48,308 nt of DNA, taken from positions 1-48,308 of IMG/VR virus record IMGVR_UViG_3300024265_000080. One strand, written 5' to 3'. The translations under genes and the position numbers were made by a program. Below the pieces are notes generated by a model that was given only the letters and a program-made list of their open reading frames with translations, had not been told where the DNA came from and searched no databases. The stretch comes from a virus. Positions 3,583 to 39,123 of the stretch are shown here, piece by piece (the stretch's first letter is position 1; each line of letters begins with the position of its first letter).

Positions 3583-3583
3583 A

Positions 3584-4327: not shown

Positions 4328-4338
4328 GTACATCCTTT

Positions 4339-4358
4339 AGGGGAGCTTTCACTCCCCT
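4339..4358 (-). other. hairpin in the leader of the glycosyltransferase gene
   Basis: There is a perfect 7-bp stem, AGGGGAG/CTCCCCT, with a 6-base loop. It lies between the beta-helix gene and the glycosyltransferase start, directly before its ribosome-binding site. No T-run follows on the minus strand. It therefore looks like an mRNA processing or translation-control hairpin, not a strong terminator. Confidence 0.5.
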
Positions 4359-4386
4359 AAGATAAGTTTATCTACTACTTCATTCT

Positions 4387-5382: not shown

Positions 5383-5402
5383 TTTATTCTCCTTTGCCTA
5401 GC

Positions 5403-5424
5403 AGGTGGGGATGGTTCCCCACCT
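5403..5424 (-). terminator. hairpin after the capsid gene
   Basis: There is a perfect 8-bp stem, AGGTGGGG/CCCCACCT, with a 6-base loop, about 19 bases after the capsid stop on the minus strand. No T-run follows, so it may act as a 3' stabiliser or partial terminator that raises capsid mRNA relative to downstream genes. Confidence 0.5.
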
Positions 5425-5442
5425 GTGTCCAGCAATCTAAGT

Positions 5443-6576
5443 TTAGCTTGATGTACTGAAGGAGTGTAAGAAGCCGTGATGTGCGTCATTTGCACACACG
5501 AATCCATACTCTCCTACAATCTGACCTAATACAGCGTCACCCATCTTCCCCAAATCCTCATAGAAGAAAGGGTCGAATGGGTAGAAGGCAATCATTTCAC
5601 TGTCAAGAACCCACATTTCGTCGGTTGGGCAATCTCTATCAACTACGACAGAGAGAACGCTTCCTGAAATTGGATTCATGAGTTTGGTAATCATATTGCC
5701 ACCGAGAGATTCAGACCGATCTGTGGTGATGAACCCTTCATAGAAGGCATTGATCTTCCGCTGTGTGAAAGCACCAGTTAGAATCAAGTTAGGATCTCCC
5801 CCGTCCAGATGGATAGCTTGTAGTAAGTCATCAATGTGGTCTCGGGTAAGAGCTGCGCTTGATACGTCGGTTGAGTTATTACTGATGAAGGACCTAAATC
5901 CACCAGCCATACGAGCTAATCCAGCTTCGCCAGCATATGCTTTTCCACGATAAGGAATCTTGTTTAGAAGCATGGAAAGTTCTTCCATCTTTTTGTTGAT
6001 CTCGTATTCCTTTGCGTCGGGGATTCCGTACTGAGCTACCTTCATTCGAGAACGGGCGATATTAATTGTCCGTTGCAGAATTTGGGTATAGTTATAGGAT
6101 GACGTAACTTCAGTCATCGGGCTGTCATCCGCAGCGTCGCCGTCAATCCTGGCTCTACTGTAAATGTAGACCGTTGAAGAAGCAGCGTGGTTGGTTGCGT
6201 CGGTTGAGCCGTAACCTCGGGTAAAGGTTGGTACTCCAGTAGTAGCTGCGACAGCACTTACCCACATCATTTCGCTGTCAACCAGAAGAACATCACCTGG
6301 CTGATACAGAGTAGTGCTTGTTGGGGTAAAGGTAGTAGCAGTAGTGCTTGCAGTCAGAGCATTGCCACTAATGGTTCCTGACTCTGGTACGTAGGTATCA
6401 TTCAACCACTCGTAAGAGGTTTGGTCACGATTGACCATGTTGAATTTTCCTACATCCATTCCTAAGACTGAGAGGGTCGCGATTTTCAGAGGATTAACAT
6501 TAAAAATCCTATCTGAAACCATCCTCTTATCGGGAACGGTATTCTCATAAGTATTGTGTTGGCCTGAATAAGCCAT
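5443..6576 (-). CDS. major capsid protein (SU10/DUF5309-like)
   Basis: This 377-aa protein starts at ATG 6576 behind AAGGAG. It matches the SU10-type capsid family in outline. The N-terminal arm contains VGKFNMVNRDQTSYEWLND. An inserted beta domain covers about residues 60-140 (TTFTPTSTTLYQPGDVLLVD). The helix-rich core contains NYTQILQRTINIARSRM and an EINKKMEELSMLLNK spine helix. The C-terminal P-domain-like region has DPNLILTGAFTQRKINAF. It follows a scaffold-like gene, as is usual, and is served by its own internal late promoter. A self-assembling HK97-fold shell subunit is the likely role. Confidence 0.85.
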   Translation of the reverse strand: MAYSGQHNTYENTVPDKRMVSDRIFNVNPLKIATLSVLGMDVGKFNMVNRDQTSYEWLNDTYVPESGTISGNALTASTTATTFTPTSTTLYQPGDVLLVDSEMMWVSAVAATTGVPTFTRGYGSTDATNHAASSTVYIYSRARIDGDAADDSPMTEVTSSYNYTQILQRTINIARSRMKVAQYGIPDAKEYEINKKMEELSMLLNKIPYRGKAYAGEAGLARMAGGFRSFISNNSTDVSSAALTRDHIDDLLQAIHLDGGDPNLILTGAFTQRKINAFYEGFITTDRSESLGGNMITKLMNPISGSVLSVVVDRDCPTDEMWVLDSEMIAFYPFDPFFYEDLGKMGDAVLGQIVGEYGFVCANDAHHGFLHSFSTSS

Positions 6577-7409: not shown

Positions 7410-7976
7410 CTAAAGATGCTTCCAGCTTTTCATGTTGACAATGTTGCCAACGTGATGCCTATTTATTTTGAACATTTTACTCAACATTGTCTGTGTCACC
7501 CTCTCAGTAGAGTGAAGCCTTCTTATTTCCAGAACCTCACACTCTTTCAATTTAGAGTTTGAGTTGCTTTCGCCAGCCCTTCGCCCTTTCATATATTCTG
7601 ATAATTTCTTTTTTGTTTCCTCTGAAAAAACCCTGCCTGTCGCAGTAACAGACATCTTCTTTTTTGCTTCTTTAGAGTGCTTCAAGCCAAGTGTAGGGGC
7701 AGTAGCACACGTTGAGATATTGTACTCTGGTTCCCAATTATCTAAATACCATTGTTCAAGCCATAGTAAATCAGAGTTCTTTTTCCAACACAACAATACT
7801 TCAAACTCAAAACTGTCTTTGCTGTATTTGTTCCAAGCTGATTGCAAGTGAGGGTTAAAATGTTTGTTATGGTTTAGTCTTGTTTTGTGGTCGCGCCACC
7901 TTCTCTCTATATCAACAGCAGAACCAATATAATTTTTCCCGTTCTCTGTATTTAGTATTTGGTATATTCCTTTCAT
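7410..7976 (-). CDS. GIY-YIG homing endonuclease (copy 2)
   Basis: This 188-aa protein begins GIYQILNTENGKNYIGSAV, the GIY-YIG catalytic start, with the R/H-containing helix ERRWRDHKTRLNH. A NUMOD3-like basic segment lies around residues 100-130. A C-terminal helix-turn-helix domain (KLKECEVLEIRRLHS...MKSWKHL) is nearly the same as that of the nuclease at 38.5 kb. The start overlaps the giant gene's stop (ATGA), and the gene ends a few bases before the internal late promoter. Insertion between giant protein and scaffold may be why a second promoter is kept here. That link is inference. Confidence 0.92.
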   Translation of the reverse strand: MKGIYQILNTENGKNYIGSAVDIERRWRDHKTRLNHNKHFNPHLQSAWNKYSKDSFEFEVLLCWKKNSDLLWLEQWYLDNWEPEYNISTCATAPTLGLKHSKEAKKKMSVTATGRVFSEETKKKLSEYMKGRRAGESNSNSKLKECEVLEIRRLHSTERVTQTMLSKMFKINRHHVGNIVNMKSWKHL

Positions 7977-10900
7977 CGAGAGGTGCCAACACTCAAGACT
8001 AATTCGTCGTAACTCATTCCAAGCTCAGCAGCCATGTCTTGTACATGAGGTAGCAAGTCTTTAGGGAATTCATCACCTAATTCCCAAGCCAAAAGCACCA
8101 TTTCCGTTTCTTTTGATTTCAGTATGCCGACCCACTCATCTCTTGTATATGACTTGGTATCTGGTGCTTCAATGTAACCAGCTATATCAACTTCTCCAGT
8201 TGAGGCTACGTCTAATCCCCAATCATCCCGAAGCCTGGTATCCTGCCCTTCTGGTAACTTCTCTCCGTAATCAACCATAGCCTGTGTAAGGTCCGGGATG
8301 TAAACATCATTCTTCTTGTCCCAATAATTTTGCAGTTGAGGATATTTTTTCTTCCAGGCTTTTGCTTCGTCCTTCTGTCCAGTATCAGTGTATATAAAGT
8401 ACTGTGTTTGAATATCCCATATTTCTGATCCAAACTCATCCTCTAGTTTCTGGTACATAATGCCTTTCCAGAAGTTACGGAGTCTGTCAATTGAACCATA
8501 GTAGGGACTTAGAACTTTATCATTAATAATATATCCAGCCTTCCAACTCATTGCCTCGTTTACTTCTGGGTGTTCTTCTAAGTAGTCATACCAGGCATCT
8601 TGACTATTAAGACTCTCCCCTTTCAAGTTGTATCCAGCATCTACCTTGTCCCAAATAGTTTCTCCAAACATTTTTTGCCCTTCTTCTAGCATTTCGCTGT
8701 ATCTTATTCCAGCTTCCATCCATTCGCCTTTAGTGGCCTTGTCTGGAATAGCAATAGTGGCACCTACTTCGGCAAAGAATGTCATCAATTTGTCTTGATC
8801 GTTTTGCGGAAGTTCTGATATATCGCCATTGTTGTCGTAGAAATAAGAGATAATATCGTATTTGAAACCGGCTGCTTTTGATATGTCGTCCGTTTCCCCT
8901 GGCGCTATTCTACTTAGGACTGAATACCCATAAGCGATATTTCTTTCTTCGGTACCCTTTCTTCCAAGTAACATAGTCTCTGCAAACGGGTACTTATCCA
9001 TTAATTTTTGTCTTTCTATTTTCCATTCGTCTTTATCGTAGTCATCCATTCGGACTACCAGTGAGATATACTCGCTCCAGAACTGATTAGCAACAAGGTC
9101 GTCTCTTGATCTGGCTCTGGCATTGATTCCTGTAAAGAAGGATACAACATTCCCGTAAGCACCCTGATTTGCGACTATTCCTACTGCTTCGTCCCACAAT
9201 GGTCCCTGATGTTTCTTTGCTTGTTCAAGTAATTCTTCTGGTATATCTGGGTATTTGTCGATTAAATATCCGAGAGCAACCGCTACTCGCTTCTCATCAT
9301 ATGGTCCAAGCGAACGACCAGAAACAAAACTATCCCAATCGTTATTGGCTGAGAAGTACCCCACTGATGGGTCTAAGTCAATTCCTCTGCCCTCGTTCAC
9401 TCCAACTATTGACGTTAACCCTTTGATAGTATTGGTGACTGGTATCATTCTGCCACCCCACTTCGCGGCGGCTTCATCCTCACCGGCTGCTTTCAATCCA
9501 ATCGCCATGGCATACTGCTGAATCATTCCCATGCTCCCCGGGATTTTATTGCTGAGTTGGTCTACTATAGAGCTGAACCAAGTTGCCCTTCTATCCTCAT
9601 CCTCAAATCCACCACCAAGATTTTCAAAGACATCGAGGATCCCGGCCAACGAAAGATATAGTGGGTTCTCTGCGTCTAAACCAAATATCTCATTTGTGCT
9701 CCAAGATTGTCGTAACCACTCAGGCCAACTAGCGTGATGTTTGTCCATTGCTTCACGGTAGTTCATGTAAGCCTGAATTAAATCCAAGTAATAAGGTGCG
9801 CGTTTAGCCCACTGATACAACGTTCTTGTAGGCCAGAAGTGGAAGTTCCTAACCATTCCAAGTGCGCCATCCATACCAAACCTATTAGCGTAATCATGTA
9901 GAATTCTATCTCGTTGAGCCTGACCGTATTGGGCGGCAGCATTTTTGATATGAACCATTCGCTTCTTGACTTCTTTCAAAAACGCTTTGATTGGCTTGAG
10001 AGATTTTTTAGGTATATTTGGAGTAGTGTCTGTCCAAACTGGTTCAAGAGAAGTCTTTACTTTTCTAATTGCAGCTTCTAATATATCTCTCTGCTCATAG
10101 ATATTTCTGCCTTCTGAAACTGCTAGGCTCCCGTCATGCGGAGGAATGATTGGTTCAATGTCGTCAGCTATGCTAGGAACAAGCTCCTCAAGATTTCTAA
10201 TTGTTGCGCCTTCTCCCACTATGTCTGAAACAACTTGGAGCGATATTCCTGCTTTTTCTTCTCCGCCGAGAGTCTCAATAACCTTTTTCATACTATCTAT
10301 TTGCGCTTGTGTTGGCTGGTGGACCATTGTTACAGAGTAAACGTGCCTTCCCGCCCCGGCACTTTTTCTAACAAAGGTCAAACCAAAACCAGTATCCTCT
10401 AAAAATTTAGGAGCTTCTGAAACATCACCTTTGTATCCGAATTTGCTCCAACGCGACATTGCACCAGAGTGATTCTTTCCATAAAGTAGTGTTCCATCAG
10501 GAGCCAGGAATAACGCGTTCTCTACTGATTTTTCTGTAATGTCCTCGATTGGAATACCAGCGTCGATTATTTCCCGTATTTCGTCTGGAGACTTCGGATA
10601 CCTGTTTGGTATAATCCCGGCAACTGTTTCTGTCGGTTGCGGTGCTTCTGGCAATGCGCCCGATTCGCCAGTTCCTTCGGATGTATATATCTTTTCACCG
10701 GCAGTTTCAATTTTGCCAAGGACAAGTTCTTCCGTTTTGTCTCTCATTCCGTTAATCAGTTCTTGAGCATACTCAGTAAGAGCTATGTTCTGCTCTATCA
10801 CGCTGCCTGATTCTTCTATCAGTGGGGTGATTTTATCAATTTCCCCATAACGCACGATGAACTTTCTAAGTTCTCGCGAATCAGTTAGGTCAAGGTCGCC

Positions 10901-13900
10901 TTTGTATGTCTTAGCTCTGCGGACAATGTTCTGAGCCGGTACTGCTTCAGGCACTCTTACTTCTAGTTTGTAGCCAATAATTTCATCGTATGATTCTTCT
11001 GGTACTGGAAATTCGTTCTCTATTCCAAGTTTAACGTAAGACTCAAAAGCAACTTGAGGGTCAACTTCATCTATTGAATTATACGAAACACCAGAGTATT
11101 TCTTAATTACATCAAGTATCTCACCATCAAAAGCGGTGTTATCTACTCGGAATATTTCGATGTAAGGGTTCAAGTAAGCAGAAATAGCTCTTGCAGCATT
11201 GGCACTATCATTCATTCCTGCATGACCCTGAACAAGACTCTGTATTGGACGAAGTTTCCCATCGTAAATCACGGCGTTATCTAATCCAGTTGCTACTCTT
11301 TCGTTTGCTAATACAGCTTTGTATTCTGCCAAGTTATAGATGCTGTCTCGTATTGGACTATCCGGAAGTGCCTCTACAATGCCGTCAACCCAGGCTTGAA
11401 ACTCAACTACTGCTATCTTTCTGGCATCAGAGAACTTTTTAATATAGTCAGCAAATACATACGTCCACATCCTGTCTTTTGCTAACCATTGATCCTCAGG
11501 AATGTCGCCCGGGACAGAAAGTCGTGATTGAATTTCTGCCCATATTCCAGGCAATTCTTCAAGTTTTAATTTAAGTAACCTTTTCCCAAAGTCACGGGCA
11601 TAAGCCATTGCTTCCCTTGACTCCCCAGTTACTTCTATAAACTTATCCTTCGGGTTTCCAAGTGCCTTGTATATAGGCTTAAGTCCATCTAAGACCGTGT
11701 TTGCTGTTGCAAGGTTTGGGCTCGTATGCCTTACTGCTTCATTAATGTATTCTTTAATCTCGATTATGCCATGAGATATTCTATCTGTAACATTTACATT
11801 GGCTTGGATTCTATTGATTCCAGTATTGTAAATATCAAGAGGAAGGTTATATACTTCTGTTTTCTCACCGTCTATCTTGATAGAAACAGGAGCGTCATTT
11901 CTGGCTACATGGGCATCTTCTAAAATATGCCCGATGTCATCTTCTAAATTAATCGGGTCGCGCTGCGGAGCTGGGAACTGTCCCTCAATATCTTGTATTA
12001 AGGATAATTGAGCTTCCAATAGTGCGTCTATTTGCTGCTCTGCTTCTTCCCACGTTGAAGCATTGACAGCAATTTGTTCTACTTCTTGAAGAACACCAAT
12101 CCTTCTAAGTTCTTGTTTGGTTTGGTCATCCATCCATTCCATTAAGTCTTTAGTTCTGAGTGGCTCTCCATTAGAAACACGCTCAATGATTTGCGCTCCA
12201 GCCTTGTCAGCGTCACCATAATGGTTAATTAATAACTGGTAGAAATTTCTAACGACTTCTTCTGGAACTCCAGCAGCAAGCATCTCTGCTGAATCTGGCA
12301 TAGTCTTTGATATTAGATCACGCATTGCTTCTTGAATAGCAGAACCAATAATCTTCTGACCGTTCTTTTGTTCGATAAAGACCATTGACCTACCACTAAA
12401 GTTCGTTACCTTCTCAATCAAATCAATATCGGCATTACCGCCTACTACTGCATTTAATAAGGAACCCATTGTTTCGTAACTACCGCCAGTCGCCTTTGAC
12501 ACATCTTTGTTTATTGCGGTAATTTCACTTCCACCAAAACCTTGTAGGTATCCAGGGTGTTCAAAACCTATCCATTTTCCCCCAATCTCTGCCCATCCGA
12601 ATCCAGTATAAAGCTGGCTTGAAGGCTGAACAGCAGCAGAAGTTAACAAGTCTGTAAGTGCACCGCGAGTTGCAACGGGGAAGTTCATTCCCACTAAAAC
12701 GGTGCTGGAAACATTCTTTTGTAATCTATGCGCTGCCCCATATTTTCCTGCCAATCCCTTCTCTGCCGTAGTCATGGCAATCATTCTCTGGAACGGGCCT
12801 AATTTCCCGCCCTGATCCCAAAATCTTTGAACTGCTACAGGCACCTTTGCTGTTGGGTCTAGCTTCAAGGCGTTCTCAGTATCTATAATTTGTCGCTTGG
12901 TTGCATAGATGCGTTTGATAATTTTGTTTGCTTCATTAATAGCGAAATCAACTGGGTCTGTTCCAGCTTCAATAGCCTTCTCCATTCTATTCTTAAACTT
13001 TACTGGATTAATAGTTCCATCTTCATCAGACAAGAGTTCTTTCAGGTAAATTGAAGTATCTATTGCTGGGTCTGTTAGTGCTAGTTCTGGAGCATGTAAC
13101 ATGCTATTCAAGTTCAACCAACCAACTCTCTGTTCTACTTCATCTAAAGAGTTAAGCCTTGCCATATTAACTAAAGCATCTGTAACATCGTCGGCATTTT
13201 TAAGATTCTGATTAAGTATTTGAAGGTTGAGTTTCGCGCCTACAAGAGCATTGTGTTGTTTAGATGCACCATCTGTAAACCACATTCCAAACGAAGTCAA
13301 GTCTTTATTCATACCGGCAAGATGTCGCGCCGAAGCTGCTGAATAACCAGCTAGTATTTCGTTGCTCCAAGCAATCTCTCCAGTAGGAAGTATTGATTGT
13401 CCAGGAAGGCTTTGAGCTGCGGTAATCCACGCGGCTTCGCTTGCAGCAGCAGTAGCTTCAGTAGTAGCGGTGGCAACAGCACCAGGGAGTGCCGCTTGGG
13501 ATCCAGTAACAACTGCTCCCTCGCCAATTATTTCACTAGCCTGGTTTAGTAACATGTAATCTGCTGTACCTGTCCCGGTTTTAGTAAAAATTACATTTCC
13601 GTACTTTTTATAAACTGCGGCTACCTCGTCGGCTGGAGAGTTTATATATTTATAAGCACTATTTATTACAAGTTTCCCTTTAATCATCCTTGAGATAGGG
13701 CCTACGACTATCGTTGGATTAATGAGCGTGTAGCCAAGAGCTTGTGAAAAAGGTTGCTCCATAGAAAGTGCCACAAGGTCTGGGTTCTGTCCTCCAGTTA
13801 CTCGATCTTCAAACTCTTTTATAGCATCCGTGTCTCGATAAGCTAAAGAGTAGGCAAATCTTGATAGCTCCTTTGACCTAGCTCGATATTCTGGTACTTC

Positions 13901-14983
13901 GCTAAGTTTTACATCACCCCTTGCTAGTCTGACAAGTGAAAGAAACATGTTCCCGTAAAATTTTTGTGGTTGAATCCTATCAAAATAATCATATAACCAA
14001 TGATCTTTGAGTTTTTCTTCTCTAAACGCTTTTGACGGAGGCATAAATCCATGTTCTTGCTCAAATAACAATTCGGCTTCTTCGCGATTTTGCTCTGTTT
14101 TTTGCCAAAGCAAAGGATCTCCTGTTTCAGCTATAAGTTGAAATGCGAGGTTTGTTGGCATATACAATCTTTGCATAAGTTTCCCAATACCCGTCGTTGC
14201 ATAATCGTAACCAAGGGCAAACTTAGCTTGTCCGTATGAACCTTCACCTATACCAAACTGTTTTGTACTGTATGCTAAAACATATTCTTTATCTGCGTCG
14301 TAATCTTCACCAAGTTCTTCTGCTAAAGCAGCTTGTACCTTTATTTCTTCTCGTATCTCTGCGTCAATTGCATCAAGGTTGTCGGAATATTTTCGCATTG
14401 GGGCAAGGCTATCATTTCCATAATAAGGAGTTTCTCCATCATATTGCCAGCCAGAGGCTTGCCCTGGCAAAGATTCTCCGTACTTGTTTAATAGTTTACC
14501 GTCGTCGCCTTTGGGTAAAGTCGTTTCGTCCCAAGCAGTATTCGCCGAGCCTCTCCCAAAAGTAGCTGGATCAGTTCTGTAATATGACATCATTTGCGGA
14601 TTAACTTTTTCTGTAATTTTTCTTTCATAATGCGACCAATCAACAGAAGTAAGTGGTTCTCCACCTGGAATAACGCTACCTTGCTCAAGTATTTTCTTTT
14701 CGTAGAAGTGTCGGTCTAATCCAGCATAAGGTATTTCGGTCTGGCTATTTTTCCTTTTTTCTTCCGAAGCCCAATATGCTTCTAGCTTTAATCTGTTATT
14801 GTTCTGCCACTTAGCGTCCCTTTTCTCAATCTCGGTACGATACCATTGCTGTAATACTGGATCGCCACGCTTCTTACGCGCATCTTTCTTTTGCTGATCG
14901 CGTATTCTATCGCCCATGCTAGGCTTATCTTCTTCTGTTGCCTTTGGAGGTTTACCACCAAATATATCTGTTGGGAATACCAT
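7973..14983 (-). CDS. giant virion-associated protein, polyvalent-like
   Basis: This 2336-aa protein occupies 15% of the genome. The N-terminus (residues 1-110) is charged and helical (RIRDQQKKDARKKRGDPVLQ). The middle is a mosaic of helical and mixed segments, including an Ala/Thr-rich linker near residue 510. A mixed alpha/beta segment lies near 1550-1650 (FLAPDGTLLYGKNHSG, then RHVYSVTMVHQPTQAQIDSM) and resembles modules found in large polyvalent phage proteins. Near residue 1750 a Trp/Tyr-rich helical region begins (VRNFHFWPTRTLYQWAKR) and runs to the C-terminus. I see no signal peptide or clear catalytic motif. Between the portal-side genes and the scaffold, a protein of this size could be an ejected internal protein. 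A polyvalent enzyme delivered with the DNA is the alternative. Confidence 0.7.
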   Translation of the reverse strand: MVFPTDIFGGKPPKATEEDKPSMGDRIRDQQKKDARKKRGDPVLQQWYRTEIEKRDAKWQNNNRLKLEAYWASEEKRKNSQTEIPYAGLDRHFYEKKILEQGSVIPGGEPLTSVDWSHYERKITEKVNPQMMSYYRTDPATFGRGSANTAWDETTLPKGDDGKLLNKYGESLPGQASGWQYDGETPYYGNDSLAPMRKYSDNLDAIDAEIREEIKVQAALAEELGEDYDADKEYVLAYSTKQFGIGEGSYGQAKFALGYDYATTGIGKLMQRLYMPTNLAFQLIAETGDPLLWQKTEQNREEAELLFEQEHGFMPPSKAFREEKLKDHWLYDYFDRIQPQKFYGNMFLSLVRLARGDVKLSEVPEYRARSKELSRFAYSLAYRDTDAIKEFEDRVTGGQNPDLVALSMEQPFSQALGYTLINPTIVVGPISRMIKGKLVINSAYKYINSPADEVAAVYKKYGNVIFTKTGTGTADYMLLNQASEIIGEGAVVTGSQAALPGAVATATTEATAAASEAAWITAAQSLPGQSILPTGEIAWSNEILAGYSAASARHLAGMNKDLTSFGMWFTDGASKQHNALVGAKLNLQILNQNLKNADDVTDALVNMARLNSLDEVEQRVGWLNLNSMLHAPELALTDPAIDTSIYLKELLSDEDGTINPVKFKNRMEKAIEAGTDPVDFAINEANKIIKRIYATKRQIIDTENALKLDPTAKVPVAVQRFWDQGGKLGPFQRMIAMTTAEKGLAGKYGAAHRLQKNVSSTVLVGMNFPVATRGALTDLLTSAAVQPSSQLYTGFGWAEIGGKWIGFEHPGYLQGFGGSEITAINKDVSKATGGSYETMGSLLNAVVGGNADIDLIEKVTNFSGRSMVFIEQKNGQKIIGSAIQEAMRDLISKTMPDSAEMLAAGVPEEVVRNFYQLLINHYGDADKAGAQIIERVSNGEPLRTKDLMEWMDDQTKQELRRIGVLQEVEQIAVNASTWEEAEQQIDALLEAQLSLIQDIEGQFPAPQRDPINLEDDIGHILEDAHVARNDAPVSIKIDGEKTEVYNLPLDIYNTGINRIQANVNVTDRISHGIIEIKEYINEAVRHTSPNLATANTVLDGLKPIYKALGNPKDKFIEVTGESREAMAYARDFGKRLLKLKLEELPGIWAEIQSRLSVPGDIPEDQWLAKDRMWTYVFADYIKKFSDARKIAVVEFQAWVDGIVEALPDSPIRDSIYNLAEYKAVLANERVATGLDNAVIYDGKLRPIQSLVQGHAGMNDSANAARAISAYLNPYIEIFRVDNTAFDGEILDVIKKYSGVSYNSIDEVDPQVAFESYVKLGIENEFPVPEESYDEIIGYKLEVRVPEAVPAQNIVRRAKTYKGDLDLTDSRELRKFIVRYGEIDKITPLIEESGSVIEQNIALTEYAQELINGMRDKTEELVLGKIETAGEKIYTSEGTGESGALPEAPQPTETVAGIIPNRYPKSPDEIREIIDAGIPIEDITEKSVENALFLAPDGTLLYGKNHSGAMSRWSKFGYKGDVSEAPKFLEDTGFGLTFVRKSAGAGRHVYSVTMVHQPTQAQIDSMKKVIETLGGEEKAGISLQVVSDIVGEGATIRNLEELVPSIADDIEPIIPPHDGSLAVSEGRNIYEQRDILEAAIRKVKTSLEPVWTDTTPNIPKKSLKPIKAFLKEVKKRMVHIKNAAAQYGQAQRDRILHDYANRFGMDGALGMVRNFHFWPTRTLYQWAKRAPYYLDLIQAYMNYREAMDKHHASWPEWLRQSWSTNEIFGLDAENPLYLSLAGILDVFENLGGGFEDEDRRATWFSSIVDQLSNKIPGSMGMIQQYAMAIGLKAAGEDEAAAKWGGRMIPVTNTIKGLTSIVGVNEGRGIDLDPSVGYFSANNDWDSFVSGRSLGPYDEKRVAVALGYLIDKYPDIPEELLEQAKKHQGPLWDEAVGIVANQGAYGNVVSFFTGINARARSRDDLVANQFWSEYISLVVRMDDYDKDEWKIERQKLMDKYPFAETMLLGRKGTEERNIAYGYSVLSRIAPGETDDISKAAGFKYDIISYFYDNNGDISELPQNDQDKLMTFFAEVGATIAIPDKATKGEWMEAGIRYSEMLEEGQKMFGETIWDKVDAGYNLKGESLNSQDAWYDYLEEHPEVNEAMSWKAGYIINDKVLSPYYGSIDRLRNFWKGIMYQKLEDEFGSEIWDIQTQYFIYTDTGQKDEAKAWKKKYPQLQNYWDKKNDVYIPDLTQAMVDYGEKLPEGQDTRLRDDWGLDVASTGEVDIAGYIEAPDTKSYTRDEWVGILKSKETEMVLLAWELGDEFPKDLLPHVQDMAAELGMSYDELVLSVGTSR

Positions 14984-16063
14984 TTATATACTCCAGCTTG
15001 TTAATCCAAAATAAGATGCTCTTTCACCACTCGCAGGTTTTTGACTTGGACTCCTATATCCACCGCCGCCGTATTCGTACTGAGGATATTCATAACCGCC
15101 GCCATATCCACCATATCCGCCAGTTCCAGTAGGCCATTCAATCACATCAAAAAATTCGCCAGTGAATAAAGCAGAGTCATCTACCATTGCCCAAAAAGCC
15201 TGTACTTCGCCAGGATTTCTTGGATCAATTTCATTAATCTCGTACAGGGAATCAAAATAATTCACTTTACCCCTGTCTACCCATTGGTCGCTTTCATCAA
15301 GAGCCCATCTATCGTGAAGGGGCACACCAGGCATTTCGTACATACCTCGTTGCCCATACTTCCCTATGTCTTTCTCGGCTTGCACTTCAGGATCATAGTA
15401 ATCAGCCCCAAACTTGGACATTTGGTATGAGTAGTTTTTTCTTTTGCTCAATTCGATATTCTTTTCAGTAACGAGAGCATTTAATTTTTCGTCCATATCC
15501 TCAATAGGGGTATCCCAGACTTCGGCAAATCTTGGGTCTTGCCAATATGGATTAACTTGTGCTGGATTCCATGCGCCAGCAGGAGTTTCTATACTGTAAT
15601 CTTCTGTACCCATGGTAGCGATAAACTCAGTAAATTGAGGCATATTCCAATCTCGGGGGGACTTCATACCACCTTCGGTTTCTTCAGCAGTTCCATACCC
15701 GGGATCAAAGTATTTAGGAGGAATATTTACCGAAGCACCCGCTGGAGGTTTTTGTGTTGTATTAACTTTAGCCGTACTGCCTGGTGGTAAATCATATTTC
15801 TCGTCAAGAGATGCCCAACTATCGCCAACGCTGGCAACAGCAGTATACTTGGTAGGAACTTTCCCACCTTGAATTTGCGTTCCGATACGACGATCAGTTA
15901 TTGTTGCTGCTGCTTTTCTCTTTGCGTTTGCTCTCCTTGCTTCTTGTTTATCAAGTTGTCGCCGAGTTAATGCAGAACCGCCCCGTTGCCTTCTTTTGGC
16001 TGCTGATTTTGACCCATATTTTGATTGTTGGTACGAACCAACTCGACGATCACCTATCGCCAT
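14984..16063 (-). CDS. LysM-like domain virion protein
   Basis: This 359-aa protein has a strongly basic N-terminal ~55 residues (KSAAKRRQRGGSALTRRQLD). A LysM-like module covers about residues 75-115: KYTAVASVGDSWASLDEKYD, then N and a VNIPP ending, matching the Vxx-GDs-x-L-y-N-G-iP layout. The middle is acidic and the C-terminus Gly/Tyr-rich (GGYGGYGGGYEYPQYEYGGG). LysM binds peptidoglycan or chitin-like glycans, so this may be a virion protein that touches the cell wall during entry. It directly abuts the giant gene (TAA-ATG) and overlaps the preceding small gene. Confidence 0.65.
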   Translation of the reverse strand: MAIGDRRVGSYQQSKYGSKSAAKRRQRGGSALTRRQLDKQEARRANAKRKAAATITDRRIGTQIQGGKVPTKYTAVASVGDSWASLDEKYDLPPGSTAKVNTTQKPPAGASVNIPPKYFDPGYGTAEETEGGMKSPRDWNMPQFTEFIATMGTEDYSIETPAGAWNPAQVNPYWQDPRFAEVWDTPIEDMDEKLNALVTEKNIELSKRKNYSYQMSKFGADYYDPEVQAEKDIGKYGQRGMYEMPGVPLHDRWALDESDQWVDRGKVNYFDSLYEINEIDPRNPGEVQAFWAMVDDSALFTGEFFDVIEWPTGTGGYGGYGGGYEYPQYEYGGGGYRSPSQKPASGERASYFGLTSWSI

Positions 16064-20707: not shown

Positions 20708-20713
20708 GGGTAT

Positions 20714-20723
20714 GTGGTATAAT
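20714..20723 (+). promoter_or_regulatory. extended -10 promoter, leaderless sulfotransferase message
   Basis: GTGGTATAAT gives a consensus -10 with an upstream TG; no good -35 is present. TATAAT ends six bases before the ATG at 20730, so the transcript probably starts at or next to the start codon. The same TATGTGGTATAATG string occurs in front of the HNH gene on the other strand near 25.2 kb. Confidence 0.65.
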
Positions 20724-20729
20724 GAAAAT

Positions 20730-21299
20730 ATGATAATATCTAAAAAGAAGAAGTTTGTATTTGCGTCTATTCCCAAGACAGGGACTACCTCAATAGAACG
20801 CACCTTGATGAAATACGAGGATGCGTTTGCAACAGTATCCTCTAAAAAACACACTCCATTCTTGCAAGTAGAACATTTACCACTCCCATATTTCAAGTTC
20901 TGTTTCTTCAGGAACCCATGGGATCAGTTCGTTTCCCTGTATGAGTACCGTAAAGAGAGAAGGAAATTTGAAAAGCTACCTTTCAATGCGTGTTTTGATG
21001 AGTGGGTAGAAAATGCGATACTCTGTTTTGAGTACAAGATAGAAACAGAATACGGGTTCATATTGGACGCTAGTGGATTTCCTATTCCCGGTATAAAGGT
21101 TTACAAATATGAGGAGATATATGATGCTTGGGGGGATATTTGCAACAGACTAAATATTACAGACAAGCTCCCCCACTATAACTACACTAAACGCCGTCAC
21201 TACTCCACCTACTACACAAATAAAACCAAGCACATCATAGCGAGAAAGTGCTGGCGTGAAATAGAAATGATGCAGTATCAATTCAAGGAGAGTGAGTAA
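20730..21299 (+). CDS. sulfotransferase family protein
   Basis: This 189-aa protein carries the PAPS-binding loop SIPKTGTTS at residues 13-21. The 3'-phosphate-binding segment FFRNPWDQFVSLYEY follows at about 59-73. The C-terminal YTNKTKHIIARKCWREIE segment, ending in QYQF, matches the end of carbohydrate sulfotransferase domains. It would transfer sulfate from PAPS to a hydroxyl of a glycan or small molecule. I start at ATG 20730 because the upstream ATG is part of the promoter. It heads a tightly coupled cassette with two glycosyltransferases and a cytidylyltransferase. The acceptor is unknown. Confidence 0.85.
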   Translation: MIISKKKKFVFASIPKTGTTSIERTLMKYEDAFATVSSKKHTPFLQVEHLPLPYFKFCFFRNPWDQFVSLYEYRKERRKFEKLPFNACFDEWVENAILCFEYKIETEYGFILDASGFPIPGIKVYKYEEIYDAWGDICNRLNITDKLPHYNYTKRRHYSTYYTNKTKHIIARKCWREIEMMQYQFKESE

Positions 21300-21880
21300 T
21301 GGAACTAAATATTCTACTAACAGGATTAGAGGTAAAGGATTATACTACGCAAGCGATAAGTACGATTCGCCAACACAATCCCGAAGTGGATATAATCTGG
21401 ATCCATGCTGGGGAAGAACCCCCTGGTCCAATGGGTTGTAAAGTCCTCCACGCTCCAGGTGCCTCGATGACGGAAGCCTTTAACCAAGGCATCCTGCAAA
21501 ACCCTGCTACATGGCATTTGATAATCAACGATGATGTTATTTGTTGTGGCAGTATGAATGTCAGTAACTTGGATGAGAAGTCACTTTACGCTCCTGGTAT
21601 GGGAAGATCCGACAAGGTTGGAGGAAGGGAATTTCTGTTAGGGTGGGCTTTACTTCTCAGTGATTCCGCTTGGCAAGCAGGAGTACAGTACGACACCAAC
21701 CTAATAAAGTGTAATTGGGAAGATTTTGATATTCACATGCAAGCTAAATCAATGGGGTACGGTACGGTTCCTGACCCAACGTTATTTCCGTTCAGGCATT
21801 TGAAAGCATCTGGGCGAGTCATTGGTTCTGATTTTTGGTGGAAGAACCTAGCATACGTCAAGGAGAAGTGGAACGTATGA
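21299..21880 (+). CDS. GT-A family glycosyltransferase
   Basis: This 193-aa protein has a Rossmann-like start (MELNILLTGLEVKDYTTQAI), an acidic metal site LIINDDV at about residues 74-80, and the downstream segment GWALLLSDSAWQAG...NWEDFDIHMQAKSMGYG. Together these match a short GT2-like fold. The final FPFRHLKASGR includes a basic patch. The start overlaps the sulfotransferase stop (TAATG) and the end overlaps the cytidylyltransferase start (ATGA), so the cassette is made as a unit. The sugar and acceptor cannot be read from sequence. Confidence 0.75.
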   Translation: MELNILLTGLEVKDYTTQAISTIRQHNPEVDIIWIHAGEEPPGPMGCKVLHAPGASMTEAFNQGILQNPATWHLIINDDVICCGSMNVSNLDEKSLYAPGMGRSDKVGGREFLLGWALLLSDSAWQAGVQYDTNLIKCNWEDFDIHMQAKSMGYGTVPDPTLFPFRHLKASGRVIGSDFWWKNLAYVKEKWNV

Positions 21881-22272
21881 AAGTACTTACGATAGGCACG
21901 TTTGACCTTCTGCATGTCGGACACATAGAACTATTCAACTATGGGGCGCAGTTTGGTGAATTAGTCATTGGGCTCAATACAGATGAGTTTGTACTACAAT
22001 ACAAGGGCGAACTACCAGTTCAAAACTACGATAAAAGGTACGACAACATAGTACGCTTTATCGGTATAGAGCCACTGAAGAATGACAGTGCTGGCAGAGA
22101 GCTTGTAGAGTGGGTTGAACCAGATTGTATTGTAGTTGGTATGGACTGGCATGAGGCGGGGTACTTGAAGCAAACAGACTTGACTAATGAGTTTCTAAGT
22201 GATAATAATATCTCAGTGATATATACACCAAGAACATCTGGAATATCTAGCTCTACTTTGAGGAAAAAATGA
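21877..22272 (+). CDS. TagD/GCT-like cytidylyltransferase
   Basis: This 131-aa protein is almost the exact length of glycerol-3-phosphate cytidylyltransferase. It shows the nucleotidyltransferase motif HVGH at residues 13-16, the GTFDLLH start, and the second signature RTSGISSSTL at about 119-128. The reaction expected is CTP plus a polyol-phosphate giving a CDP-polyol and pyrophosphate, a precursor for teichoic-acid-like or glycan phosphate linkages. The start ATG 21877 has AGGAG 12 bases upstream and overlaps the previous stop. Glycerol, ribitol or another alcohol phosphate are all possible. Confidence 0.85.
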   Translation: MKVLTIGTFDLLHVGHIELFNYGAQFGELVIGLNTDEFVLQYKGELPVQNYDKRYDNIVRFIGIEPLKNDSAGRELVEWVEPDCIVVGMDWHEAGYLKQTDLTNEFLSDNNISVIYTPRTSGISSSTLRKK

Positions 22273-22823
22273 AAATAGCTGTAATCTCTACCTCATTCTA
22301 TATGAAGGAATACGGGCAGCCATTCATGGACTCACTTCAAAAAACTAATCCTGAAGTGGATTCAGTGATGATAGACCAATCAGAAAATAGATTTCGCAGC
22401 AAGGCGTGTGCTTGGAACTACGGGGCAAAGCTAGTAGATAATGCGGAAATTTTATTTTTTTGTGATGATGACTTAATCTGGGCAGGTAAGATCATTCTGC
22501 CAGAAGCAGAGTTGTTTGGGCCTACCCTTCTGAAGTCAGGGCATTTCGGGTTTGACGTGGGATGTGATTTCTTAGAAGGTTGGTGTATAGGAGTTACGCG
22601 GAAACTGTATGAGAGGATAGGAGGGTTTGACGAAAAGTTTATCAACTGCGGGATATCAGACTGTGATTTCAGTATCCAGGCTCATAAACTTGGAGTAAGT
22701 GCTGTTAGATGGACGTTCCCCGGGGTGCATCTACGGATTGGTACGAAATTTAAAATCAACTTTAACGAACCCGAAACAAGACTAATGAATATTGCGTATC
22801 TAAAAGGAAAGCATGGATTATGA
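22269..22823 (+). CDS. GT-A family glycosyltransferase
   Basis: This 184-aa protein begins MKIAVISTSFYMKEYGQPFM and has the acidic metal site LFFCDDDLIW near residue 66. The acceptor-side region YERIGGFDEKFINCGISDCD is characteristic of GT2-like enzymes. It ends FNEPETRLMNIAYLKGKHGL, as full-length members do. It is coupled to the cytidylyltransferase (ATGA) and to the following Cys-rich gene (ATGA). A second sugar transfer in the same pathway is inferred. Confidence 0.8.
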   Translation: MKIAVISTSFYMKEYGQPFMDSLQKTNPEVDSVMIDQSENRFRSKACAWNYGAKLVDNAEILFFCDDDLIWAGKIILPEAELFGPTLLKSGHFGFDVGCDFLEGWCIGVTRKLYERIGGFDEKFINCGISDCDFSIQAHKLGVSAVRWTFPGVHLRIGTKFKINFNEPETRLMNIAYLKGKHGL

Positions 22824-23011
22824 GAATATACATATCTAACCACGTACCAGAAAACCAGTTTGATAAAGAACGCTGCAAGACTTGCAAAGCTCACGAAATG
22901 GAAGGGAATAGAGTAGTCTGTACCAACCTTCGTGCAGTTCACTATATAATTGGCAACTCTCTATGCGAGGTATACGATGTTTGTGAGAATAGTATTGCTG
23001 ATGCTGACTAG
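22820..23011 (+). CDS. Cys-rich small protein
   Basis: This 63-aa protein has Cys pairs CKTC at residues ~19-22, then VVC and LCEVYDVC, enough for a small zinc site. It starts with an ATGA overlap on the glycosyltransferase stop, hence is expressed with the glycan cassette. I do not recognise the family. A role as a regulator or partner of the enzymes is only a guess. Confidence 0.6.
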   Translation: MRIYISNHVPENQFDKERCKTCKAHEMEGNRVVCTNLRAVHYIIGNSLCEVYDVCENSIADAD

Positions 23012-23057: not shown

Positions 23058-23059
23058 AA

Positions 23060-23098
23060 ACCCCCGACATTGCAGCATCGTTGAGAGGCTTCGGGGGT
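23060..23098 (-). terminator. rho-independent terminator of the 25.2-23.1 kb minus operon
   Basis: Stem ACCCCCGA/TCGGGGGT (8 bp) has a 23-base loop. On the minus strand it is followed by TTTTATTTA. It ends the minus-strand genes and can also stop read-through from the plus-strand cassette, because the two units converge here. Confidence 0.7.
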
Positions 23099-24502: not shown

Positions 24503-24600
24503 GGAGTTGAACTCCCGTTTTTCTTGACGTTTAGTGTCGTTATGGGGTACAAAACCCCCTGTATCTACACGTAATGTAAACCTGATGGGCCCATCAGGTT
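24503..24600. repeat. cluster of three inverted repeats
   Basis: The interval between two minus genes holds GGAGTT/AACTCC (1-base centre), GGGGT/ACCCC (5-base loop) and a perfect 22-base palindrome with arms AACCTGATGG/CCATCAGGTT around GC. The palindrome touches the HNH stop codon. It could end HNH transcription or bind a dimeric regulator of the next genes. No T-run of note follows. Confidence 0.6.
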
Positions 24601-25198
24601 ATGTCGGTATTCCTTCACAAGCTCTTTCCCACTCAACTACTACTTGCATAAATTCTTCACTTCGATAATCATTACTATTGCGACTACCTTTGCTTAAATT
24701 GCATGGTCCGCAAAGAACCTGGAGATTACTAATCCCATTGTATCCGCCATTAGCAAGTGGGACAATATGATCTATCTGTAAGTTCAAAACCTTTCTGCAT
24801 TTGAGGCACCGGTATTTAGCTAAGTTTAATAGAAATTTTACATCTTCCCCGGTGTGATCTCCGCCGTTGTTTAGTTTCCTGCTTTTACGACGAGCAGTAT
24901 TTGCTCTGCACTTCTCAGGATTATTTTTTTGCCACGCTCTAGTTCGTTCTCTCGCTTTCTCTCTGGCCTTCTTAGGACTGTCTTTCCACCACCACCTTAT
25001 TCGCTTAGTGCTCAATTTTTTGTTGTTTTTGTAATACTTTTTGTAGTATTCTCTCTGATATTCTTGCCGCGCCTCGCTTTTATACCGAAGATTACTGTGA
25101 CATCCTTCACACAGTCCCTTTACTTGGTGATTACTACCAGGAGTAGTACACTCAGGATTCTGGCACTCATCGTATTTCTTGCTCCACATCGGTTTCAT
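24599..25198 (-). CDS. HNH endonuclease
   Basis: This 199-aa protein has an N-terminal zinc motif (CQNPEC...GLCEGCH, residues ~10-35), a long Lys/Arg/Trp-rich helix (residues ~40-105), and the C-terminal HNH core YRCLKC...LQIDHIVPLANGG...NLQVLCGPCNLSKGS. The DH and final N of the core are intact. I start at ATG 25198 because TATAAT lies six bases upstream, which makes upstream ATGs part of the promoter. A free-standing homing nuclease is likely; a packaging-associated HNH is less likely because it is far from terL. Confidence 0.85.
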   Translation of the reverse strand: MKPMWSKKYDECQNPECTTPGSNHQVKGLCEGCHSNLRYKSEARQEYQREYYKKYYKNNKKLSTKRIRWWWKDSPKKAREKARERTRAWQKNNPEKCRANTARRKSRKLNNGGDHTGEDVKFLLNLAKYRCLKCRKVLNLQIDHIVPLANGGYNGISNLQVLCGPCNLSKGSRNSNDYRSEEFMQVVVEWERACEGIPT

Positions 25199-25204
25199 AA
25201 ACCC

Positions 25205-25258
25205 ATTATACCACATAACTATTGCAGTAATTGGTCAAATGTGGCAAATTACTGCAAT
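25205..25258 (-). promoter_or_regulatory. promoter of HNH gene with overlapping operator-like inverted repeat
   Basis: The minus strand carries TGTGGTATAAT ending six bases before the ATG. Directly upstream is a perfect 12-bp inverted repeat (ATTGCAGTAATT/AATTACTGCAAT, 14-base gap) at 25221-25258, where a -35 would normally be. The layout suggests a repressor or activator site controlling a leaderless message. Confidence 0.6.
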
Positions 25259-31858: not shown

Positions 31859-32425
31859 ATGAAAACTATACTTGATTTATGCGGAGGGACTGGTGCCTGG
31901 AGCAAGCCTTATGTAGAAGCAGGCTACGACGTCAAGCTAATAACATTGCCAGAATATGATGTGCGATTATATTCTCCGCCAGATAATGTACATGGAATAT
32001 TAGCTGCACCGCCATGTACTGAATTTTCATATGCCAAACATTTTCATGGCAAGGGAAATTATAACCACGACTTCAGAGCAGGGCTTGAGGTAGTAAGCGC
32101 ATGTATGAGAATTATACTAACGGCGAAACCTATGTGGTGGGCATTAGAAAACCCGCGTGGTTATTTGTTGAAATGGCTAGGAAATCCAGTATTAGAATTT
32201 GATCCCTGGCAGTACGGAGATAACTACCAAAAGAAAACCTGCTTATGGGGACACTTCAATACACTAGTGCCAATAGCATCTAAAAAACCAAAGGGTATTA
32301 TAAAGTTTTCAATGCTAAAGAGTAAAGAAATATTTCCCGAATACTATGGCAAACTCACAAGGCAAGAGCGCAGGGCAATTACTCCACCCGGGTTTGCTCA
32401 AGCCTTCTTTGAAGCTAACCAATAG
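31859..32425 (+). CDS. DNA cytosine-5 methyltransferase, short phage type
   Basis: This 188-aa protein shows motif I LDLCGGTGAWSKPY (residues 5-18), motif IV with catalytic C53 in APPCTEFSYA, and motif VI WWALENPRG (residues ~93-101). The family transfers methyl from AdoMet to C5 of cytosine. It is about half the length of standard enzymes and lacks an evident target-recognition domain, as in a compact type I recall from many phages. Specificity therefore cannot be guessed. It heads the middle plus operon behind a leaderless promoter. Self-modification against host restriction is the likely aim. Confidence 0.8.
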   Translation: MKTILDLCGGTGAWSKPYVEAGYDVKLITLPEYDVRLYSPPDNVHGILAAPPCTEFSYAKHFHGKGNYNHDFRAGLEVVSACMRIILTAKPMWWALENPRGYLLKWLGNPVLEFDPWQYGDNYQKKTCLWGHFNTLVPIASKKPKGIIKFSMLKSKEIFPEYYGKLTRQERRAITPPGFAQAFFEANQ

Positions 32426-32690: not shown

Positions 32691-33737
32691 ATGACAAATG
32701 AACTTCAAGTGGTAAAGAAACTTAGTGAGAACGTAGCCATAACACCAGTGTCAGCGGTGATTGATTCAAACATCACAAAGGCAGAGCTTGAAAATGCTTT
32801 TGAGTTCTATAGCATGGTGGACAAGGCAAACGCTTTCTACATTGGCGATACCGCCAATGCCCAGAGTGAGAACTACGAACACGAACACGCTGACAAAGTA
32901 GCTGAACAAGTGGGCTTTACAAAAAGAACTATACAAGAGTATAAATATGTTGCAAAGGCTGTTAAATCTTCAATGCGCATTGAAGATTTAGGATTCCAGC
33001 ACCATCAATTAGTAGCACCGCTTGAAGAAGAACAACAAATAAAATGGCTCAACAAGGCAAGCGAAGGTGAATGGACAGTCAGCCGATTGAAAAAAGAAAT
33101 CGCTGATAAAAAAAATCAAGCCTTGATTGATGCGTTCAACGAAGTGCCAGAAGATGACAGGTATAATATTTTTCAAGCTGACATCAGAACAGTTAAACTT
33201 GACCAGCAGTTTGATTTCATCATCACTGACCCGCCGTATCCTAAGGAGTATCTTCCATTATTAGAAACGCTGGCTATTAGAGCTAACGTGTGGTTGAAAC
33301 CTAGTGGCTTATTGGTTGCAATGTGCGCACACTATTGGCTTCCGCAAATATTAGAAATGATGACGAGACACTTAGATTATTATTGGATATGTTCGTATCT
33401 TGTACCTGGTGCATCTGGTAGTAACATCCATAAAAAAGTCAACCCTAACTGGAAGCCAATACTTATATTTGGCAAACCCGATTATAAGGGTAAAGTCTTT
33501 AGCGATGTATTCAAAAGCGAACAACGTGACAAAGATTTTCACGAATGGGGACAATCAATAAGCGGGATGAGTTCAATAATAAGTCAGATATGCAAGCCAG
33601 CTCAAACAATTCTTGACCCATTTCTGGGTGCTGGAACAACTGGCATTAGCGCACTACAAAACCATTGCATATTTACTGGATTTGATATTGACAAAAATGA
33701 AATCAAGAGGTCATTAATGAGGATGAGTGAACTATGA
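32691..33737 (+). CDS. DNA adenine methyltransferase fused to a phage HTH domain
   Basis: This 348-aa protein has residues ~30-140 as a helical DNA-binding domain (AEQVGFTKRTIQEYKYVAKA...), as seen in stand-alone phage proteins. Residues ~155-348 are an N6-adenine methyltransferase with DPPY at 180-183 and LDPFLGAGTTG near residue 310, the order of beta-class enzymes. The reaction is AdoMet-dependent methylation of adenine N6 in DNA. The fused domain probably supplies target choice. It is coupled (ATGA) to the next gene. Restriction evasion or control of replication are both possible. Confidence 0.85.
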   Translation: MTNELQVVKKLSENVAITPVSAVIDSNITKAELENAFEFYSMVDKANAFYIGDTANAQSENYEHEHADKVAEQVGFTKRTIQEYKYVAKAVKSSMRIEDLGFQHHQLVAPLEEEQQIKWLNKASEGEWTVSRLKKEIADKKNQALIDAFNEVPEDDRYNIFQADIRTVKLDQQFDFIITDPPYPKEYLPLLETLAIRANVWLKPSGLLVAMCAHYWLPQILEMMTRHLDYYWICSYLVPGASGSNIHKKVNPNWKPILIFGKPDYKGKVFSDVFKSEQRDKDFHEWGQSISGMSSIISQICKPAQTILDPFLGAGTTGISALQNHCIFTGFDIDKNEIKRSLMRMSEL

Positions 33738-35426: not shown

Positions 35427-35882
35427 ATGAGTGAGTTTTGGAATAAGGTGGAACGTGGCGGGATAGATGATTGTTGGGAATGGAAGGCTTGTAAATGGAG
35501 AGGGTATGGGAGGCTGAAGTATAACGGAAAAAGATACCGTGCACATAGACTTTCGTGGATATTTGCAAATGGTCAGCCAGTTCCTGATGGGATGTGTGTT
35601 CTACATTCTTGTGACAATCCAAGCTGTGTAAATCCGGGTCATCTATTTTTAGGAACACAAGCTGATAATATGGCAGACATGGACAATAAAGGAAGGAGAG
35701 GATTTATAAAACGCAAAGGGGAGTCTAACTCACGATCTGTTCTAACGGAAAGACAAGTATTGCGTATTAGAGAAGAATATAAGATCAGCGGGAAAAGCCA
35801 GTCTCAATTAGCTAAAGAGTACAAGGTAAGCCGAGGGGCTATATCTGGAATAGTATCTGGCAAGAATTGGGGATGGTTATGA
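35427..35882 (+). CDS. HNH homing endonuclease
   Basis: This 151-aa protein has an N-terminal FWNKVERGGIDDCWEWKACK and an RAHRLSWIFANG segment. The HNH core follows: CVLHSCDNPSCVNPGHLFLG, then TQADNMADM. These are hallmarks of I-HmuI-like free-standing nucleases. Residues ~95-151 carry a helix-turn-helix (LTERQVLRIREEY...ISGIVSGKNWGWL) similar to the C-termini of the GIY-YIG proteins. Its stop overlaps the helicase start (ATGA). A helicase gene is a common homing target. Confidence 0.92.
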   Translation: MSEFWNKVERGGIDDCWEWKACKWRGYGRLKYNGKRYRAHRLSWIFANGQPVPDGMCVLHSCDNPSCVNPGHLFLGTQADNMADMDNKGRRGFIKRKGESNSRSVLTERQVLRIREEYKISGKSQSQLAKEYKVSRGAISGIVSGKNWGWL

Positions 35883-38138: not shown

Positions 38139-38485
38139 AGTTCGTATTACTTGGTGAGTGGACGACGCAGAATCAATACATTAGCGCAGACCGACAAGGG
38201 TACGGTTGGGTAATAAAGAAGGCTGAGACAAAAAGAGTAAGAGAAGAATTAAAAGAACAATGGGATGGGACATACCCGTCCAAGTCTATCTTCAAGTTCA
38301 CTTGGTATATGTGTAACCGTAGAACCGACCCTGATAATGTTTGTGCCTTTGCTCGGAAAGTAATATTAGACGGGATGCAGAAAGCAGGAATTATAGACAA
38401 CGATGGATGGAAACAAGTAGCCGGGTTTGAAGATTCTTTTTACGTAGATAAGGATAACCCTCGTGTGGAGATAGAGCTGATATGA
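38135..38485 (+). CDS. rusA: RusA-like Holliday junction resolvase
   Basis: This 116-aa protein is the usual RusA length. The catalytic acidic cluster is visible: RRTDPDNVCAFARKVILDGM (D65, D67, D79), then GIIDNDGW (D88, D90), and the final NPRVEIEL strand. It cuts four-way junctions symmetrically, removing branches before packaging. Start ATG 38135 overlaps the upstream stop, and its own stop overlaps the GIY-YIG start. Confidence 0.9.
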   Translation: MKFVLLGEWTTQNQYISADRQGYGWVIKKAETKRVREELKEQWDGTYPSKSIFKFTWYMCNRRTDPDNVCAFARKVILDGMQKAGIIDNDGWKQVAGFEDSFYVDKDNPRVEIELI

Positions 38486-39123
38486 TGGGAATATACCAAA
38501 TCAAAAATGTAGAAAATAATAAAATATACGTTGGTTCTTCTGTCAACCTGAATGAACGGTGGCGATTACACAAATGTAATTTAGTGGCAAACAAACACAA
38601 CAACAGTTATCTGCAAAGATCGTGGAACAAATACGGCGAAGAAAGTTTTTCCTTTTCTGTTCTTTGTAAACTAAATACAACTGAGGAAATATTAAGGATT
38701 ATTGAAAACATGTATATATATAACTTAGCCCCTGTGTATAACTTGGCTAAGTTTGCGACAAAAAGCCCGATGTACAAGAGGCATCATACAGAAAAATCAA
38801 AACAAAAAATGAGCAAGGCCGCAAAAGGGAATACTCGCAACAAGGGGCGTAAGCATTCAGAAGAATCAAAAAAGAATATGTCAATAGCACATTATGGCAT
38901 AACGCATACCAAAGAAACCAGAATGGCAATAAGCAAGACCTTGATGGGTAGAAACGTTGGAGAAAATTGTGGCACATCTAAATTAAAAGAATGTGAAGTG
39001 CTAGAAATCAGAAGGCTGTACGCTACTGATAAATTTTCTCAGACTTTGATTGGTAAAATATTTAATGTGAGCAGACATAATATTGGCGCAATTGTAAATA
39101 GAAAAAGTTGGAAACATATATGA
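38482..39123 (+). CDS. GIY-YIG homing endonuclease (copy 3)
   Basis: This 213-aa protein starts GIYQIKNVENNKIYVGSSV, and the catalytic domain covers residues ~1-95. NUMOD3-like Lys/His repeats follow (KRHHTEKSKQKMSKAAKG, KHSEESKKNMSIAHYG). The C-terminal helix-turn-helix (KLKECEVLEIRRLYATDKFS...NRKSWKHI) is almost identical in outline to copy 2 at 7.4 kb. It is flanked by ATGA overlaps on both sides, wedged between rusA and the next gene. Confidence 0.92.
   Translation: MMGIYQIKNVENNKIYVGSSVNLNERWRLHKCNLVANKHNNSYLQRSWNKYGEESFSFSVLCKLNTTEEILRIIENMYIYNLAPVYNLAKFATKSPMYKRHHTEKSKQKMSKAAKGNTRNKGRKHSEESKKNMSIAHYGITHTKETRMAISKTLMGRNVGENCGTSKLKECEVLEIRRLYATDKFSQTLIGKIFNVSRHNIGAIVNRKSWKHI

Follow-up and report, generated by a model that had tools for sequence, protein, structure and literature searches.

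A candidate phage cassette for building and sulfating a glycan, possibly on the virion

The window analysed here, a linear IMG/VR virus record of 48,308 bases that is possibly a fragment, carries at 20730-23011 on the + strand a compact cassette that would build a glycan and sulfate it, most likely on virion proteins and with host PAPS; this interpretation is favoured with modest confidence. Its parts differ in strength: glycan assembly by the predicted enzymes is held with high confidence, the virion as target and the sulfation of the same glycan are each held with moderate confidence, and the donor, the acceptor and the benefit to the phage are offered as proposals. What can be read in the sequence are the enzyme families of the sulfotransferase (STF) and of the nucleotidyltransferase (NT), the paralogy of the two glycosyltransferases (GTa and GTb), the gene order, the recurrence of the toolset and the tendency of the NT clade to lie among virion genes.

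The cassette comprises five reading frames in the order STF-GTa-NT-GTb-63-aa ORF (in the list, L013 is a 6.3-kb contig, the nearest relative of the window, and L198 is the record IMGVR_UViG_3300028837_002200):

20730-21299, + strand: STF, predicted PAPS-dependent sulfotransferase (Sulfotransfer_2), 189 aa; PF03567, phrog_3347, L013 homologue
21299-21880, + strand: GTa, small GT-A-like glycosyltransferase, 193 aa; paralogue of GTb, homologue of the L198 GT
21877-22272, + strand: NT, HxGH nucleotidyltransferase of a phage-only clade, 131 aa; PF01467, tree
22269-22823, + strand: GTb, small GT-A-like glycosyltransferase, 184 aa; sub-threshold profiles, homology to the L198 and L183 GTs and to LittleE gp17
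22820-23011, + strand: 63-aa ORF overlapping GTb by ATGA; reading frame and overlap

A sequence-only reading had described five genes running together through TAATG or ATGA overlaps, and this layout was confirmed: TAATG at 21297-21301 joins STF and GTa, while ATGA at 21877, 22269 and 22820 joins GTa to NT, NT to GTb and GTb to the 63-aa ORF, and each of GTa, NT, GTb and the 63-aa ORF has a purine-rich, Shine-Dalgarno-like stretch 5' of its start. For STF the mechanical reading frame opens at 20712, and the L013 homologue favours a start at 20730. No family was found for the 63-aa ORF in Pfam and PHROG profile searches, and the cassette proteins have no membrane-like segments. The GC content of the cassette (0.416) differs little from that of the contig (0.421) and thus offers no compositional hint of a recent import. 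The STF-GT-NT-GT run adjoins the structural operon, lying outside it, on the opposite strand and divergent. An extended -10-like element, TGGTATAAT, is found at 20714-20730 of the window, with its end some 8 bases short of the STF start codon; judged by this sequence resemblance, the cassette mRNA might thus be nearly leaderless. Past the cassette, a strong GC-rich hairpin at 23059-23098, which has a T-run on its minus-strand side, may be a terminator for convergent genes.

STF matches PF03567 (Sulfotransfer_2) at 2.2e-8, with 35 bits against a cut-off of 22, and phrog_3347 at 3.5e-13, in agreement with the sulfotransferase first recognised from its motifs. Both the PAPS loop PKTGTTS, for the 5'-phosphosulfate, and the 3'-phosphate motif RNPWDQFVS are present in the translation, and the 3'-phosphate site residues R61, N62, P63, V68 and S69 are invariant in an alignment of six phage STFs. 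The predicted model reaches a pLDDT of 65.6, and sulfotransferases make up almost all of the 24 best PDB matches, with a best E of only 0.025. In L013 a homologue 59% identical occupies the same position, divergent from the terminase side, and the two genes, with dN 0.30 and dS 1.36, appear to be under purifying selection; the L013 contig ends within STF, and its genes 5' of STF differ from those of the window. Searches of isolated phages by tblastn with STF and GTa gave no match. With the queries used, such STFs were rare in the isolated-phage collection (Stenotrophomonas phage DLP_6 and two uncultured phages), and they are common in uncultivated phages, where two patterns retrieved 402 IMG/VR stretches, 202 of them confirmed, and 27 of the 78 sulfotransferase loci examined hold more than one such gene; a phage STF on its own is therefore not new.

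NT matches PF01467 (CTP_transf_like) at 1.1e-12, with 48.8 bits against a cut-off of 21, and phrog_7878 at 1.3e-22, so that profile searches are significant for the sulfotransferase and the nucleotidyltransferase families alike. The protein had been called a TagD-like cytidylyltransferase; the nucleotidyltransferase stood, and the TagD identity was rejected. The motifs HVGH and RTSGISSS align with 1COZ, and they are common to the wider superfamily and hence not diagnostic of TagD; the score against TIGR01518, the TagD equivalog, is 56.9 bits against a cut-off of 165.4; and both CDP-glycerol transferase (PF04464) and LicD (PF04991) are absent from the window record, possibly a fragment, in searches whose controls matched. 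The CDP-polyol that had been suggested is unsupported on the same grounds. In the tree, NT belongs to a phage-only clade of 33 rows with support 98/87, outside the TagD (99/97), HldE-like and Fom1-like clades; a first tree without close phage homologues had left it on a long branch with its placement unresolved, and the addition of homologues resolved it. An HldE-type identity was not adopted, the phage clade being weakly sister (88/80) to the HldE-like clade and general family scans of the window ORFs, run without a dedicated PF00294 search, having found no sugar kinase. Fom1-type phosphonate cytidylyltransferases have in common with NT the extra segment before the GIS motif, yet form another clade. 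The best PDB matches of the NT-clade profile are ethanolamine-phosphate and glycerol-3-phosphate cytidylyltransferases, which makes CTP a likely substrate and a fair guess.

Members of the NT clade abound in IMG/VR, where at least 530 stretches were confirmed, and the usual locus runs MCP (major capsid protein), GT (phrog_2170), GT (phrog_29879), NT, head-tail adaptor, tail terminator and major tail protein. Among the 80 best NT loci, many of them from related phages and so not to be counted as 80 separate events, the full order is found in 34, the second GT (GT-A) in 61, the adaptor in 59 and the MCP in 45. One example with NT and two GTs between MCP and head-tail adaptor is L213:1941-6860, among the dozens of phages L188-L267; at the L188 locus, whose NT is 47% identical to that of the window (against 41% for L198), a P22-type coat gene lies upstream, and this locus and L198, with its terminase-like gene downstream, extend the link with virion genes to other surroundings. 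The placement of NT between MCP and head-tail adaptor in uncultivated phages is probably a wider phenomenon than the cassette itself, and the possibility of a virion coat, already raised by the sequence-only reading, is strengthened by it. Matches to NT also occur in 63 Streptomyces phage records.

The two glycosyltransferases are less easily recognised. GTa has no family match in profile searches, and GTb has only sub-threshold ones (PF10111 at 2.7e-4, 21 bits against a cut-off of 27.3; PF02709 at 1.5e-3; phrog_2456 at 3.7e-4). The acidic GT-A motifs are in both translations, as are the other motifs that had been pointed out (PKTGTTS, HVGH, RTSGISSS). By blastp GTa and GTb are 26% identical over 203 aa (4e-13, in a small database), which identifies them as paralogues at the sequence level, and a GT of L198 matches GTa at 2.6e-14 and GTb at 1.5e-15 and itself clears PF00535 (Glycos_transf_2) with 24.5 against 23.3 bits. 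Because of this paralogy and this homologue, two GT-A enzymes can still be proposed, by homology and without a profile match of their own over cut-off. GTb is also homologous to a GT of L183 (1.7e-10) and to the GT domain of LittleE gp17, and such relatives are flanked by terminase-like and portal-like genes in L183/L184 and by MCP and head-tail connector in LittleE. A GTa/GTb profile returned nothing significant against PDB sequences, exact-peptide scans of IMG/VR using GTa, GTb and the portal protein gave no match, and an AlphaFold model of GTa built on an alignment of two sequences was unusable (pLDDT 38).

Further candidate glycan genes lie within the structural operon of the window, flanked by two landmarks:

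1125-1952, - strand: SU10-like adaptor protein, landmark; PF24175 at 1.1e-3, below cut-off
2929-3612, - strand: MptE-like protein, 227 aa, with GT42-sialyltransferase profile similarity; PF01973 at 7.7e-10, over cut-off
3584-4333, - strand: GT-like protein, 249 aa, between MCP and adaptor; phrog_1574 at 2.9e-9, weak Glyco_transf_21
5443-6576, - strand: SU10-type MCP, landmark and putative glycan acceptor; PF17236 at 9.2e-55

The genes at 2929-4333 occupy the MCP-adaptor interval, which in other phages holds GT-GT-NT. The GT-like protein is homologous to the GT beside NT in L188 (3e-6), and the MptE-like protein to both MptE-like proteins of L198 (1e-20 and 1e-9). These homologies and this position suggest that 2929-4333 is a second locus of the cassette's system and that the two loci probably form one system. 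The profile of the MptE-like protein also reaches the GT42 enzyme CstII at a weak 6e-4, which fits glycan transfer as weak evidence; GT42 sialyltransferases use CMP-sugars.

In L198 (positions 1-5922) the order is GT, NT, GT-like, two MptE-like genes, FkbM and a sulfotransferase of PF00685 (3e-12), with a terminase-like gene downstream; a second sulfotransferase gene, broken into two ORFs (4180-4473 and 4520-4792), stands after the first and before the terminase-like gene. The earlier statement that no phage was known with this exact set was too strong, since L198 carries almost the whole toolset and uncultivated phages often have sulfotransferases in the midst of glycan genes. The expectation that the genes stay together held in part: nearly the whole set recurs in L198 and STF is in place in L013, but GT-GT-NT occurs without STF in two inspected Streptomyces phages and STF occurs alone in DLP_6.

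The window also encodes, by profile matches, a large terminase, a DnaB-like helicase and a GH25 endolysin, and it has few relatives, namely L013 (portal 60% identical) and the Manatee Spring phages (portal 28%, terminase 29%), whose annotation has no glyco genes and which gave no PF03567 match. Five endonuclease ORFs (1949-2608, 7410-7976, 38482-39123, 35427-35882 and 24599-25216), three of the GIY-YIG/NUMOD3 homing type and two of the HNH type, are scattered in the window, several amid structural genes. A protein of 2336 aa (7973-14983), with no Pfam match, lies between a GIY-YIG gene and the gene at 14984-16063. Two DNA-methyltransferase-like neighbours, at 31859-32425 (weak C5 methylase) and 32691-33737 (DNA methyltransferase), are separated by a small ORF and are possibly one interrupted gene.

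In the proposed mechanism, NT would attach a nucleotide to a phosphorylated sugar or polyol and so activate it, CTP being likely from the relatives of NT; GTa and GTb, with the MptE/GT42-like and GT-like proteins of 2929-4333, would put together a short glycan; and STF would add sulfate to it. The PAPS would be supplied by the host, because no APS kinase is present in the window record, possibly a fragment. The acceptor would most likely be a virion protein of capsid or tail, so that the phage would coat its own particle, with shielding, altered adsorption or altered recognition as possible benefits. Several lines of evidence point to this virion glycan: STF and NT above curated cut-offs, the translational overlaps, the conservation of STF in L013, the NT clade amid MCP, adaptor and tail genes, the L198 set, the position of 2929-4333, the placement of the GTb relatives and the lack of membrane-like segments in the cassette proteins. 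Against it stand the location of the cassette outside the structural operon and on the opposite strand, the non-independence of the NT loci, a sulfotransferase in just one of 50 NT-clade records, the DNA-metabolism context of GT-GT-NT in the two Streptomyces phages, the missing family match of GTa and the end of L013 inside STF.

An unlikely, though not negligible, alternative is that the cassette alters host surface glycans such as LPS, capsule or teichoic acid in infection, stopping the adsorption of rivals or of progeny to debris. In other phages the immediate neighbours of STF include other STFs, GTs, FkbM methyltransferases, NodZ, epimerases and capsule- and LPS-type genes, and islands of the L003 type, with HldE-like nucleotidyltransferases, GTs, epimerases and sulfotransferases, resemble LPS or capsule pathways; L003 itself (IMGVR_UViG_3300030104_005320) is a phage contig whose large LPS-like island holds four sulfotransferases beside an HldE-like kinase and nucleotidyltransferase, GTs and methyltransferases. 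However, the NT of the window falls into another clade, one confined to phages and linked to virion genes; the cassette proteins are without membrane-like segments, and the window ORFs that were scanned include no flippase-like family.

It is more improbable still that STF is a separate, hitchhiking gene with another target and that the GT-NT-GT unit makes an unsulfated glycan. CTP_transf_like (PF01467) is above cut-off in 19 of 43 STF-bearing phage records and not in the other 24, a raw co-occurrence without a random control set and not an enrichment, and where present it mostly lies kilobases from STF and is of HldE type in the records inspected. The lone STF of DLP_6, the other genes 5' of STF in L013 and the 49 of 50 NT-clade records tested that have no sulfotransferase (L198 being the exception) point the same way, and the last of these indicates that sulfation is an optional addition and not a standard part of the NT unit. 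Yet all four genes of the window are joined by stop/start overlaps, L198 pairs its PF00685 sulfotransferase with homologous GT, NT and MptE proteins, and glycan genes adjoin most other phage STFs, so a sulfated glycan made by one cassette is preferred. That NT and the GTs place a sugar, later sulfated, on the bases of phage DNA is very improbable: phage nucleotide modification based on GTs and sulfotransferases is mentioned in a passage of PMC10829341 citing Iyer et al. 2013, and GT-GT-NT lies amid DNA-metabolism genes in the two Streptomyces phages, but no base hydroxylase, hydroxymethylase or DNA GT was found among the scanned window ORFs (a part of the ORFs of a possible fragment), and the NT clade is mostly amid virion genes.

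If the sulfated virion glycan is right, phage virion glycosylation extends from plain sugars to sulfated glycans with a phage-activated donor, sulfation of the virion would be surface chemistry of a kind new to phages, and such anionic coats could influence particle adsorption, stability and recognition. The phage-only NT clade would then mark virion glycosylation in many uncultivated phages, serving as a sequence marker for probably decorated virions in metagenomes. The broader statement, that some tailed phages sulfate a glycan of their own virion with a largely phage-evolved NT, paired GT-As, a GT42/MptE-like transferase and a PAPS sulfotransferase, is tentative and somewhat doubtful.

Virion glycosylation is known or proposed for phages with GTs beside capsid genes (Corndog/Cluster O, PMC4351075), and for mycobacteriophages it is attributed to Freeman et al. 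2023 in a passage of PMC12619734. A literature search covering few subscription papers found no report of sulfated phage virions, and no description of a sulfotransferase step in a virion glycosylation cassette or of the phage-only NT clade; within that literature, the sulfation step and the phage-specific NT look new and virion glycosylation is already known. As in the mycobacteriophage cassettes, where GT genes lie amid head genes and the GTb homologue LittleE gp17 stands between MCP and head-tail connector, GTs are involved, whereas the window adds the phage-only NT and a sulfotransferase and has its cassette outside the structural operon, and LittleE has no PF03567 match. The Streptomyces phages Targaryen and SparkleGoddess (Stanwilliamsviridae) share the NT clade (34-36% identity) and two overlapping GT genes, but their GTs have no blastp match to GTa or GTb, there is no sulfotransferase and the setting is DNA metabolism. 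TagD (1COZ) is of the same superfamily as NT, with the HxGH and RTxGIS motifs, and is its best single-sequence PDB match (3e-13); NT differs in its score below the equivalog cut-off, its clade, its extra segment before the GIS motif and the lack of a TagF/LicD partner. Likeness to GT42 and MptE/MAF-type proteins is seen in the PF01973 domain and the CstII-type profile similarity of the 2929-3612 protein, a weak similarity, with no CMP-nonulosonate pathway genes among the scanned window ORFs. L198, finally, differs in the family of its sulfotransferase (PF00685, against PF03567 in the window), an extra FkbM methyltransferase, another gene order and no detectable terminase homology, while it shares with the window a GT homologous to GTa and GTb, an NT of the same clade, homologous MptE-like proteins, a sulfotransferase and a terminase-like neighbour.
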